Of a stretch of DNA of 64,000 nt, positions 31,551 through 48,222 are shown one piece after another (within the stretch, counting starts at the first letter, position 1; each line of letters starts with the position of its first letter). The position numbers and the translations under genes were made by a program. A model generated the notes under the pieces. It did no database searches. It had not been told where the DNA came from and was given only the letters and a program-made list of their open reading frames with translations. The stretch is from Paenibacillus sp. E222 (GTDB lineage: Bacteria; Bacillota; Bacilli; Paenibacillales; Paenibacillaceae), in NCBI RefSeq assembly GCF_013401555.1, contig NZ_CP058552.1:1984001-2048000 (forward strand), given 5' to 3'.

Positions 31551-31703
31551 TTTTTACACGGATAGCGAAGAGGGCAGAAATGACCTGTAGAAGCGAAGCG
31601 TTCGCCTTTATCCCCAGATTTCTACCTCTGAGATGGAGTTAAAGAAATCGGGGGATAACAGCGATCGGAAGGACATTCTGCCAGCTGAGTAATGGAGTGT
31701 AAC
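31551..31703 (+). repeat. Dispersed structured element, copy A (upstream of secA)
   Basis: About 150 bases bounded by TTACAC and GTGTAA. The outer stem is GGCAGAAATG with CATTCTGCC (one bulged A). The conserved middle is GAAGCGAAGCGTTCGC, followed by the hairpin TATCCCC(A)GATTTCT / AGAAATC(G)GGGGATA and then ACAGCGATCGGAAGG. Related copies lie at 34372, 41361, 42513/42562 and 48174. All copies are on the plus strand. It ends about 120 bases before the secA start. Confidence 0.8.
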
Positions 31704-31822
31704 CTTCAGTAAGCTCAAATTATATCGTTTGTCACCCCCGGGCAAGTGGATACATATCCATCCGATGGTGTCGCGCGGCGGCAGCAGGGGGTCTATTCTG
31801 TTTTGCACGAAAGGGGTATACC

Positions 31823-34327
31823 ATGCTAGGACTTGTCAAAAAGATCTTCGGCGACATGAACGAACGTGATGTTAAACGTCTGATGAAGACAGTCGATGTG
31901 ATCAATAAACTGGAACCACAATTTCAGGCTCTGTCTGATGAACAACTGAAATCCAAAACGGAGGAATTCCGTGCCCGCATTGAAAAGGGAGAAACAACAG
32001 ATGAACTTCTTCCTGAAGCATTTGCAACCGTACGTGAGGCATCTCGCCGTGTACTGGGCAAACGTCACTATGACGTACAGATGCTCGGAGGCATTGCCTT
32101 GCATGAAGGCCGGATTTCAGAGATGAAGACGGGTGAAGGTAAGACACTGGTAGGAACACTCCCGGTATACCTGAATGCATTGATGTCCAAAGGTGTACAC
32201 GTGGTAACGGTCAATGATTATTTGGCTCAACGGGATAGCCAGGAAATGGGACAAATTTATGAATTCATGGGCATGACGGTTGGGGTTAACCTGAGCGGTA
32301 TGGACCATGCTTTGAAACAACATGCTTATGCATGTGATATTACGTACGGAACGAATAATGAATTTGGTTTTGACTATCTGCGTGATAACATGGTGTTATA
32401 CAAAGAGCAGATGGTACAACGTCCATTGTTCTTCTGTATCATTGATGAAGTGGACTCCATTTTGGTCGATGAGGCACGTACGCCTTTGATCATTTCCGGA
32501 CAAGCTCAGAAATCCACAGATCTGTACTATGCAGCTGACCGTTTCGTGAAGCGTCTGGTTCCAGAGGAAGACTTTACGGTGGACATCAAGGTGAAATCCG
32601 TAGCACTGACTGAAGCTGGTGTGGCGAAGGCAGAGAAAGCATTTGGTATCGAAAACTTGTATGATCATGCCAATGTTACGCTGAACCATCACATCGTACA
32701 GGGATTGAAAGCCAATGTAATCATGCGTCGTGACGTCGATTATGTGGTGAGTGATGAAGAAGTACTGATCGTCGATGAGTTCACAGGCCGTCTGATGGCA
32801 GGACGTCGTTATAGCGATGGATTGCACCAAGCGATCGAAGCCAAAGAAGGTATTGAAGTACAGAACGAGAGCATGACTCTTGCTACAATTACATTCCAGA
32901 ACTATTTCCGGATGTACCGTAAGCTTGCGGGAATGACGGGTACAGCGAAGACCGAGGAAGAAGAGTTCAAAAAAATCTATGGTCTCGAAGTATTGCAGAT
33001 TCCAACCAATCGTCCAAACAAACGGGATGATATGGCTGATGTGGTGTACAAGAGCATCGATGGCAAGTTCAACGCGGTTGTGGAAGAAATTGTGGCACGT
33101 CACAGCAAGAACCAACCGGTTCTGGTTGGTACGGTTTCTATCGAAAACTCCGAGCGTATTTCCGATATGTTGAAACGCCGTGGTGTCCGTCATCAGGTAT
33201 TGAACGCCAAATATCATGCGGAAGAAGCGGAGATCATCTCAGGTGCGGGTCAGGCTGGTGCGGTTACGATTGCTACCAACATGGCAGGACGGGGTACGGA
33301 TATTATCCTGGGTGAAGGCGTAGCTGAAGTGGGCGGCCTTCATATCATCGGTACAGAGCGTCATGAATCACGCCGGATTGATAACCAGCTGCGTGGACGT
33401 GCAGGACGTCAGGGTGACCCTGGTTCTACACAGTTCTACCTGTCACTTGGTGATGAGCTGATGAGACGTTTCGGTGCAGACAATGTACTGAACATGATGG
33501 AGCGTCTTGGTTTTGAAGAAGACCAACCGATTGAGAGCCGGATGATTACCCGTGCGGTAGAGTCGGCACAAAAACGGGTTGAAGGTAATAACTTTGACGT
33601 ACGTAAAGTCGTTCTCCAATATGATGATGTCATGAACCAACAACGTGAAATTATATATAAACAACGCCGTGAGGTGCTTGAGTCCGAGAATATCAAACAG
33701 ATCGTTATGGATATGATCAAGCCTTCCATTGAACGTATTGTGGAAGCTCATTGCAGTGACGATATTCCGGAAAACTGGGAGCTGCAGGAAGTTGCCGACT
33801 ACATGAACAGCAAATTGCTGGATGAAGGCTCAGTAACGAAAGATGATCTGTGGGGCAAAGAAGCAGAAGAGATTATCGACTACCTGTTTGAGAAAGTTCA
33901 GAACAAGTACAATGCGCGTGAAGAGCGGATCGGTGAAGAGATGGTTCGTGAATTCGAGAAAGTGGTTGTACTCCGTGCAGTAGACAGCAAATGGATGGAT
34001 CATATTGATGCGATGGATCAATTGCGTCAAGGTATCCACCTTCGTGCTTACGGCGGTACAGATCCGCTGCGTGAGTACCAGTTCGAAGGCTTCGAAATGT
34101 TCCATCAGATGATTGCTTCGATCCAGGAAGAAGTGGCAACCTATGTGATGAGAGCACAAATCGAGAGCAACCAGGAACGTCAAGCGGTTGTTGACGAAAG
34201 TCAGATCTCGACAAGCGGCGAACCTACAGAGAAACGTCCGGTAAAAGTGTCTGACCAAATCGGACGAAACGATGCTTGTCCATGTGGTAGCGGCAAAAAG
34301 TTCAAACACTGCCACGGTCAAGAGTAG
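31823..34327 (+). CDS. secA: Preprotein translocase ATPase SecA
   Basis: 834-residue motor of the Sec translocon, close to the 841 residues of B. subtilis SecA. Walker A is MKTGEGKTLVGTLP (about residue 100). Further motifs include CIIDEVDSILVDEARTPLIISG, GMTGTAKTEEEEF, TIATNMAGRGTDI and QLRGRAGRQGDPG. The C-terminal zinc-binding tail CPCGSGKKFKHCHG is intact. The start follows GAAAGGGG. It is preceded by element copy A and followed by copy B. Confidence 0.97.
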   Translation: MLGLVKKIFGDMNERDVKRLMKTVDVINKLEPQFQALSDEQLKSKTEEFRARIEKGETTDELLPEAFATVREASRRVLGKRHYDVQMLGGIALHEGRISEMKTGEGKTLVGTLPVYLNALMSKGVHVVTVNDYLAQRDSQEMGQIYEFMGMTVGVNLSGMDHALKQHAYACDITYGTNNEFGFDYLRDNMVLYKEQMVQRPLFFCIIDEVDSILVDEARTPLIISGQAQKSTDLYYAADRFVKRLVPEEDFTVDIKVKSVALTEAGVAKAEKAFGIENLYDHANVTLNHHIVQGLKANVIMRRDVDYVVSDEEVLIVDEFTGRLMAGRRYSDGLHQAIEAKEGIEVQNESMTLATITFQNYFRMYRKLAGMTGTAKTEEEEFKKIYGLEVLQIPTNRPNKRDDMADVVYKSIDGKFNAVVEEIVARHSKNQPVLVGTVSIENSERISDMLKRRGVRHQVLNAKYHAEEAEIISGAGQAGAVTIATNMAGRGTDIILGEGVAEVGGLHIIGTERHESRRIDNQLRGRAGRQGDPGSTQFYLSLGDELMRRFGADNVLNMMERLGFEEDQPIESRMITRAVESAQKRVEGNNFDVRKVVLQYDDVMNQQREIIYKQRREVLESENIKQIVMDMIKPSIERIVEAHCSDDIPENWELQEVADYMNSKLLDEGSVTKDDLWGKEAEEIIDYLFEKVQNKYNAREERIGEEMVREFEKVVVLRAVDSKWMDHIDAMDQLRQGIHLRAYGGTDPLREYQFEGFEMFHQMIASIQEEVATYVMRAQIESNQERQAVVDESQISTSGEPTEKRPVKVSDQIGRNDACPCGSGKKFKHCHGQE

Positions 34328-34371
34328 TTAAACGACTCTCTACATTACCCTGTTTATAAGTTGGATCTGAA

Positions 34372-34524
34372 TTTTTACACCATAACGGAGAGTGCAGAAG
34401 CAATCTGGAGAAGCAAAGCGTTCGCATTTATCACCGGATTTTTCCCTTGTGAGAGGGAATCAAGAAAATCTGGGGATAAGAGCGATCGGAAGATGCTACT
34501 GCAATCGGAGTGATAAGGTGTAAC
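34372..34524 (+). repeat. Dispersed structured element, copy B (between secA and prfB)
   Basis: Bounded by TTACACC and GGTGTAA. The outer stem GCAGAAGCAATC pairs with GATGCTACTGC (bulged A, one mismatch). The inner hairpin TATCACCGGATTTT / AAAATCTGGGGATA tolerates one mismatch and one G·U. TCCC/GGGA makes an apical stem. ATAAGAGCGATCGGAAG follows. The sequence differs from copy A but the pairing is kept. Confidence 0.8.
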
Positions 34525-48052: not shown

Positions 48053-48090
48053 TGACGCATTTACCATAATGAAATAAAGATATACAACGC

Positions 48091-48132
48091 AAAAGCAGGC
48101 CGAGAATTTCTTCTCAAGGGCCTGCTTTTTTT
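48091..48132 (+). terminator. Terminator after argH
   Basis: AAAGCAGGCC / GGCCTGCTTT stem with a 17-base loop containing GAGAA/TTCTC, then seven T. Confidence 0.9.
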
Positions 48133-48173
48133 GTGTGTTACAACGATTTAGATATGTTCAACTCAACATTTAC

Positions 48174-48222
48174 TGGATAACAGCGATCGGAAGGTTAATC
48201 TGTCATTGGAGTGCCAGTGTAC
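48174..48222 (+). repeat. Structured element copy E, 3' half only
   Basis: GGATAACAGCGATCGGAAGG, then a tail matching the right arm (ctgtcattggagtg ... gtgta). The left half is absent, so it is a truncated remnant between argH and the esterase gene. Confidence 0.65.

Follow-up and report, generated by a model that had tools for sequence, protein, structure and literature searches.

A hairpin-forming repeat dispersed through genomes of the Paenibacillus family, probably a small mobile element

The repeat in the 64-kb window

Between the genes of the window, that is, the whole 64-kb stretch of DNA analyzed here, which is part of a 7.5-Mb Paenibacillus genome (G000), a repeat recurs in intergenic regions; its copies are listed in Table 1. 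All five sites reported by the first-pass annotation are present. Four of them are full copies by R1, a covariance model built from six copies, and the fifth is a remnant. The genes following copies A to D are, as had been stated, secA, prfB, argB, and argD, encoding the SecA, PrfB, ArgB, and ArgD proteins, and the stems quoted for the window copies pair as described, including the inner stem TGTCTCC/GGAGACA of copy C. The double site 42513/42562 consists of one element nested inside the arms of another. The statement that all copies lie on the plus strand holds within the window but not genome-wide, where the 126 strong copies are divided into 68 on the plus and 58 on the minus strand. The repeats of the window are not due to chance, since GAAGCGAAGCGTTCGC occurs 81 times in the genome with at most two mismatches, versus two occurrences of the reversed control.

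Table 1. Copies of the repeat in the window and their R1 matches (scores from a scan of the window together with 53 of 80 SecA loci)
Copy	Position	Strand	R1 match	Description
A	31535..31725	+	31554-31703, 157 bits	Full element upstream of secA; outer arms ATAATTTGAA / CTCAAATTAT
B	34355..34547	+	34374-34524, 158.5 bits	Full element between secA and prfB
C	41365..41545	+	41378-41531, 84.9 bits	Upstream of argB; second sequence type (AATCGATTCTG / AACGATCCG)
D	42503..42762	+		Upstream of argD; arms of an older element around a second, complete element (sequence reading and fold)
D, inner complete element	42556..42705	+	156.6 bits	R1 match within D
E	48152..48230	+		Remnant after argH; left terminus joined to right third (sequence reading)

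Remnant E retains the motif GGGGATAACAGCGATCGGAAG at 48173 with two mismatches and has convergent genes on its two sides, according to the list of open reading frames. A terminator-like hairpin with a T run (48095-48132), recognized in the sequence, stands directly after argH and before the remnant.

Spread of the repeat and anatomy of its fold

The 7.5-Mb genome contains 131 matches to R1 at E ≤1, of which 126 are strong (E ≤2.4e-6); the weakest five (E 0.007-0.13) were omitted from the counts. The strong copies are dispersed, intergenic, and without a gene of their own, and no called gene is overlapped by a copy by more than 40 nt. Since 150 of 1220 first-look candidates were scored, the number of 126 is a lower bound. 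Matches were found in all 75 genomes of the genus (G000 included), in 202 of 245 sampled genomes of the family, covering 13 of 19 genera, and in 27 of 299 genomes of a class-wide sample, every one of them from the same family, Paenibacillaceae, with at most 41, 12, and 10 matches per genome being counted, respectively. Some genomes of the genus proved poor in copies in that search, G014 having one match, G039 four, G024 five, and G009 six. Thus the element is not confined to the window and is found far outside it. The nearest named genomes by SecA are those of Paenibacillus tundrae, P. amylolyticus, and two others, all 98% identical. None of the phage records matches the repeat; two plasmid records of P. 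cellulosilyticus align with roughly half of the query sequence at 75-76% identity.

The first-pass annotation recognized no riboswitch or T-box in these sequences, in agreement with Rfam: the whole window yielded no match at the gathering score of any family, and positions 31000-48500 nothing sensible at E up to 10. Identification with a known Rfam RNA family (riboswitch, T-box, HEARO, or others) was rejected on these two scans. Further, the available portions of the literature found, including PMC3049150, PMC4686876, PMC3446304, PMC12306157, and PMC2267715, contain no description of the repeat. It is real, unregistered, and family-wide, while its broad kind, hairpin-forming mobile repeats, is already known. 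Its unusual features are the strand-specific fold obeying a DNA mini-hairpin rule, the block exchange of cores, and the sense retention in G000. A structured repeat that reaches more than 100 copies in one genome, that was found in the majority of the members sampled from a large family of soil bacteria, and that is missing from Rfam and from the literature found, can be mistaken for a riboswitch regulon. It also provides a natural library of folded sequences for testing whether selection acts on the DNA or the RNA form of a mobile hairpin.

Each copy is a non-coding element of ~190-260 bp that forms one long imperfect hairpin. Its outermost parts are the terminal arms, inverted repeats that pair in folded copies and are common to young copies, where they read like CTATATAAGTTGAACTAA...TTAGTTGAACTTATATAG; the arms of copy A were delimited against the empty sites of relatives. 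Inside the arms there is a TTTACAC/GTGTAA-like stem and, next inward, a symmetric CGNAG/CGNAG internal loop, YGNAR on both strands (on the 5' side in 87 and on the 3' side in 85 of 89 copies). These are followed by a stem of free sequence in which pairing is retained, a GC-loop-GC mini-hairpin, TTCGC paired with GCGA, and, innermost, a long stem whose loop varies. An optional extra arm of ~39 nt follows TTCGCC in many copies, and the copies at 2598413 and 3647465 apparently have two such arms each. The copies fall into two or more sequence types (AACCTG and AATCGATTCTG). The optional arm AAAGCTTTCTGAAAGAAAGCTACTTCGGAAGCATACGC is gained or lost between orthologous copies, and in one copy at the second site beside secA (site B, locus L229) this arm has a variant end.

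Of 88 parsed copies, 64 have a GNA triloop in the mini-hairpin, 16 have a GNNA tetraloop, seven an ANA triloop, and one GAAT, so that the loop is GNA or GNNA in 80; the closing pair is C-G in 86 and the outer pair G-C in 80. None of the 16 GNNA tetraloops is a GNRA, the tetraloop form favored in RNA. PMC4686876 describes DNA mini-hairpins as extraordinarily stable when a GNA or GNNA loop is combined with at least two G-C pairs. The d(GCGAAGC)-type hairpins treated there likewise have such a loop closed by two G-C pairs, though as a chemical motif and aptamer part, whereas the Paenibacillus mini-hairpin belongs to a genomic repeat in which it is conserved.

In 89 aligned copies from G000 and a distant congener, G060, 94.9% of the cells are paired, and both partners have changed in 31 of 35 pairs. 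Not one of 500 shuffles is as high by any measure, and pairing falls to 33-51% when the partner is slid by 1-3 columns. Selection on the structure of the repeat, proposed earlier from paired changes in the window copies, is therefore strongly supported; given that the copies are related by descent, the covariation is strong, short of a formal R-scape test.

Gene context, empty sites, and exchanged cores

Gene context in G000, taken from a home-made gene caller, is dominated by co-directional intergenic regions, which hold 87 copies in sense and 12 in antisense; the other copies are in divergent (17) or convergent (8) regions or have no called left gene (2). Among 106 copies followed by a co-oriented gene, 40 have its start codon 40-60 nt past the end of the model. 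In G060, where context and sharing were analyzed for 30 copies, the bias is weak: 12 are sense, seven antisense, five divergent, and four convergent, and two have one gene only. Ten downstream proteins that were scanned belong to unrelated pathways.

Two explanations of the position and orientation of the copies were tried. Insertion into the -10 box of promoters, an idea taken from the TATAT ends, was rejected since, in the 105 copies that have a co-oriented gene downstream, TTGACA-like hexamers show no enrichment at spacings of 16-18 upstream of the end; in the 20 other copies such hexamers reach 25% at spacing 15, which we leave uninterpreted. The replication strand was considered as the cause of orientation, 100 of the 126 copies pointing with replication (origin and terminus set from skew). 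However, where co-directional genes run against replication, six of eight copies follow the gene, and divergent and convergent regions together give 15 to 10; these numbers are small, and an influence of replication is still conceivable.

The copies beside secA were surveyed in 30 secA loci of the genus, including that of G000. Site A is filled in 12 loci and short and empty in 18. Site B carries a full element in 20 loci (19 by motif and L216 by length), a 5'-truncated element in three, and an arm remnant in two, and is empty in five. Both the presence and the type of these copies vary among close relatives. An empty version of site A reads ATTATTTATATCG, and filled versions have ATAT flanking the element on both sides; this is the only site with a clear target duplication. 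In P. tundrae, only the outer arms ATAATTTGAA-CTCAAATTAT are left upstream of secA (L124, ~9881-9902), joined to each other, an arrangement that excision of the hairpin, or its entry into a palindrome, would produce.

Copies are also found within the inner loop of other copies (6987528 and 3715131), and in copy D of the window a complete element stands in place of the core of an older one. A further kind of replacement is seen in a pair of copies at a gene that we take to be fabZ from recognition of its protein, as we do for purB and purC below; Pfam reports only a FabA-like domain in the fabZ product. In 13-14 genomes of the G060 clade these copies keep their position, and their cores are of two types that differ as blocks. 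Core identity in the antisense partner is 0.94 within and 0.58 between types, with 0.87 and 0.86 in the flanks; the sense copy has 0.87 and 0.70 in the core and 0.83 and 0.82 in the flanks. The types were defined on the core, hence only the flank comparison is independent. One sense copy (L290), typed T2 by regular expression, resembles T1 in the alignment. In-place compensation was considered for this pair and rejected, as the two-sided changes there look like block exchange instead. A repeat that evolved by swapping its hairpin cores at fixed sites would be unusual.

G000 and four other genomes (G006, G043, G010, and G011) have in common copies that precede fabZ and purC by 47-67 nt, and fabZ has no copy in 12 of the 30 distant genomes examined. 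Of the 30 G060 copies, three occupy intergenic regions in which G000 likewise has a copy, one of them in opposite orientation. This sharing indicates that some copies persist long. The putative purB-purC intergenic region contains a copy in both G060 (L261) and G000 (L045), in opposite orientations.

The folded molecule, gene control, and means of spread

The repeat is probably a family of small non-autonomous, hairpin-forming mobile elements of the Paenibacillus family, whose fold is under selection for their own spread, perhaps in the form of single-stranded DNA. The observations on which we base this reading are dispersal, empty sites, nesting, block differences between cores, paired changes, and a single strand carrying the wobble pairs. 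The element would enter AT-rich intergenic DNA (TATAT at one clear site), and the cores of old copies would be replaced by other cores. The fold would be the substrate of a recombinase acting in trans, perhaps on single-stranded DNA. The sense copies, which in many cases shortly precede a start codon, would be transcribed together with the gene; this could affect the mRNA mildly, although the explanation does not require it. Against mobility there are the failure of the searches described below to find a mobilizing enzyme, the single clear target duplication, and the sharing at fabZ, at purC, and with G060, which suggests that copies outlast a young transposon.

The same context could be read as that of a cis-regulatory RNA leader, the fold in the 5' UTR controlling translation, stability, or termination of the downstream gene in a very large regulon. 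The prevalence of sense copies (87 of 99 in co-directional regions), the start codons 40-60 nt after the model end (40 of 106), the covariation of paired positions, the tolerance of G·U, and the presence in five genomes of copies that precede fabZ and purC by ~50-65 nt are all in its favor. We nevertheless consider it unlikely, because copies turn over at secA between close relatives, antisense copies keep the same wobble strand, orientation is only weakly biased in G060 (12 sense, seven antisense), and the downstream genes are diverse. Nor is constraint in place significant in the orthologous secA copies, in which 26 of 186 paired and 48 of 269 unpaired columns are variable (p=0.30, structure from other copies). 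Such constraint had been favored with a structure predicted from the same alignments, a count that was not used given the result with the independent structure. The divergence of these copies is about that of their flanks (less in one group of three) and below that of secA third codon positions. For these reasons we do not uphold the RNA leader on housekeeping genes implied by the first-pass annotation. The persistence of the fabZ and purC copies between species means that regulatory use of single copies may hold. The retention of sense copies could mean that leaders tolerate them or that the mRNA gains slightly from them.

Counts of wobble pairs bear on which molecule is folded. Over 29 pairs in the 89 copies (7 of 36 pairs omitted), there are 48 G·U against 10 A·C, and an earlier count on 115 copies gave 91 against 40, shuffles giving 278 against 234. 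This excess of G·U indicates that the strand as written is the folded one. Were the transcript of the gene the selected molecule, copies antisense to the next gene should reverse the bias; those of G000 keep the same element strand, with G·U to A·C ratios of 77:27 in 97 sense and 12:2 in 18 antisense copies (pairs 167-321 and 174-313 left out; 129:35 and 21:5 with these kept). The antisense copies of G060 give 5:2, too few to judge. Two apical pairs were omitted from both G·U counts, and rows 116-150 of alignment A3 were omitted as mostly reverse-strand shadows of the palindrome. Together with the GNA and GNNA loops, which in the absence of GNRA fit the DNA mini-hairpin rule, this makes us lean toward single-stranded DNA as the selected form. 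RNA may be that form as well, since common descent gives related copies the same loops and the folding energies leave the matter undecided (copy B folded alone has z -5.6 as RNA and -5.0 as DNA).

It is quite improbable that the element is mobile via its own RNA, with the folded RNA being selected and later copied or used as a guide. The excess of G·U over A·C on one strand and the very stable RNA fold would suit such a route, yet the tetraloops avoid GNRA, no discrete RNA is known, and a reverse transcriptase profile (RVT_1) has no match in G000, with control matches in 3 of 14 genomes. Searches of G000 with the Y1_Tnp and RVT_1 profiles and a left-end scan found no mobilizing enzyme for the repeat. 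The left-end scan for an autonomous partner, made with one end pattern, gave 30 places, and the two checked outside known copies are truncated copies. REP/RAYT and IS200/IS605 elements have strand-specific imperfect hairpins tied to single-stranded DNA, and REPs are 20-40 bp long. Movement of the repeat by a Y1 transposase, as an element of this kind, would fit its imperfect, strand-specific hairpins and the existence of a single Y1_Tnp gene in the genome, which is IS200-like (L271, G000:C1 3203715-3204071). But this gene is bordered by its own terminal hairpins, ACCACCCGCTATGCGGGTGG and ACCACCCGTTGGACGGGTGGT (of the ACCACCCG... type), and the surrounding 3.4-kb locus contains no copy (best R1 score 8 bits, E 0.29). 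Without a Y1 gene linked to copies, and with an element several times longer than REP, we find this origin scarcely credible, and Y1 was rejected as the mover.

For the mobile repeat that we favor, a more specific scheme is possible but doubtful. Spread through the family and core exchange might both proceed as strand-specific folded single-stranded DNA, the GNA mini-hairpins and GNA/GNA internal loops serving as the recognition structure for a putative chromosomal single-strand recombinase, neither Y1 nor reverse transcriptase, with a bias in landing or persistence toward the sense strand close to gene 5' ends.

Among known repeats, BOX of Streptococcus pneumoniae is the closest in architecture, as compared by description. 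In the portions of PMC3049150 available, BOX likewise is a small dispersed intergenic repeat predicted to form a folded RNA in untranslated regions; both repeats have an optional middle module in variable number, and in both, copies insert into other copies. Whereas BOX is over-represented in convergent intergenic regions and sparse upstream, sense copies upstream of genes prevail in this Paenibacillus genome, and the mini-hairpin rule and core exchange are absent from the description of BOX found (PMC3049150). The bcr1-bcr3 repeats of the Bacillus cereus group are likewise folded, MITE-like chromosomal repeats of a group of Bacillota; about half of the bcr copies, from all 18 families, are expressed, often in UTRs (PMC3446304, PMC2267715). 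They belong to another taxon and were compared by description, and the text found describes neither their orientation nor core exchange.

Finally, several arrangements of neighboring copies were noted. In G060 (L241-L270), all 11 neighboring pairs less than 3 kb apart face outward (minus, then plus), with gaps of 56-1474 bp, as in 3378468-3378969. They were counted among 53 of the 63 matches in this genome; of the ten omitted, six are shadows, and for the other four (4546545, 5501699, 2024280, and 4799143) there was no good reason for omission. In G000, unlike G060, neighboring copies are mostly in the same orientation. Copies in G000 are sparse near the presumed terminus (C1, ~4.22-5.06 Mb), with three in 4.0-4.5 Mb and none in 4.5-5.0 Mb, and a tandem run of four degenerate copies with a spacing of ~250-260 bp is located at C1 434499-435373 (L046).
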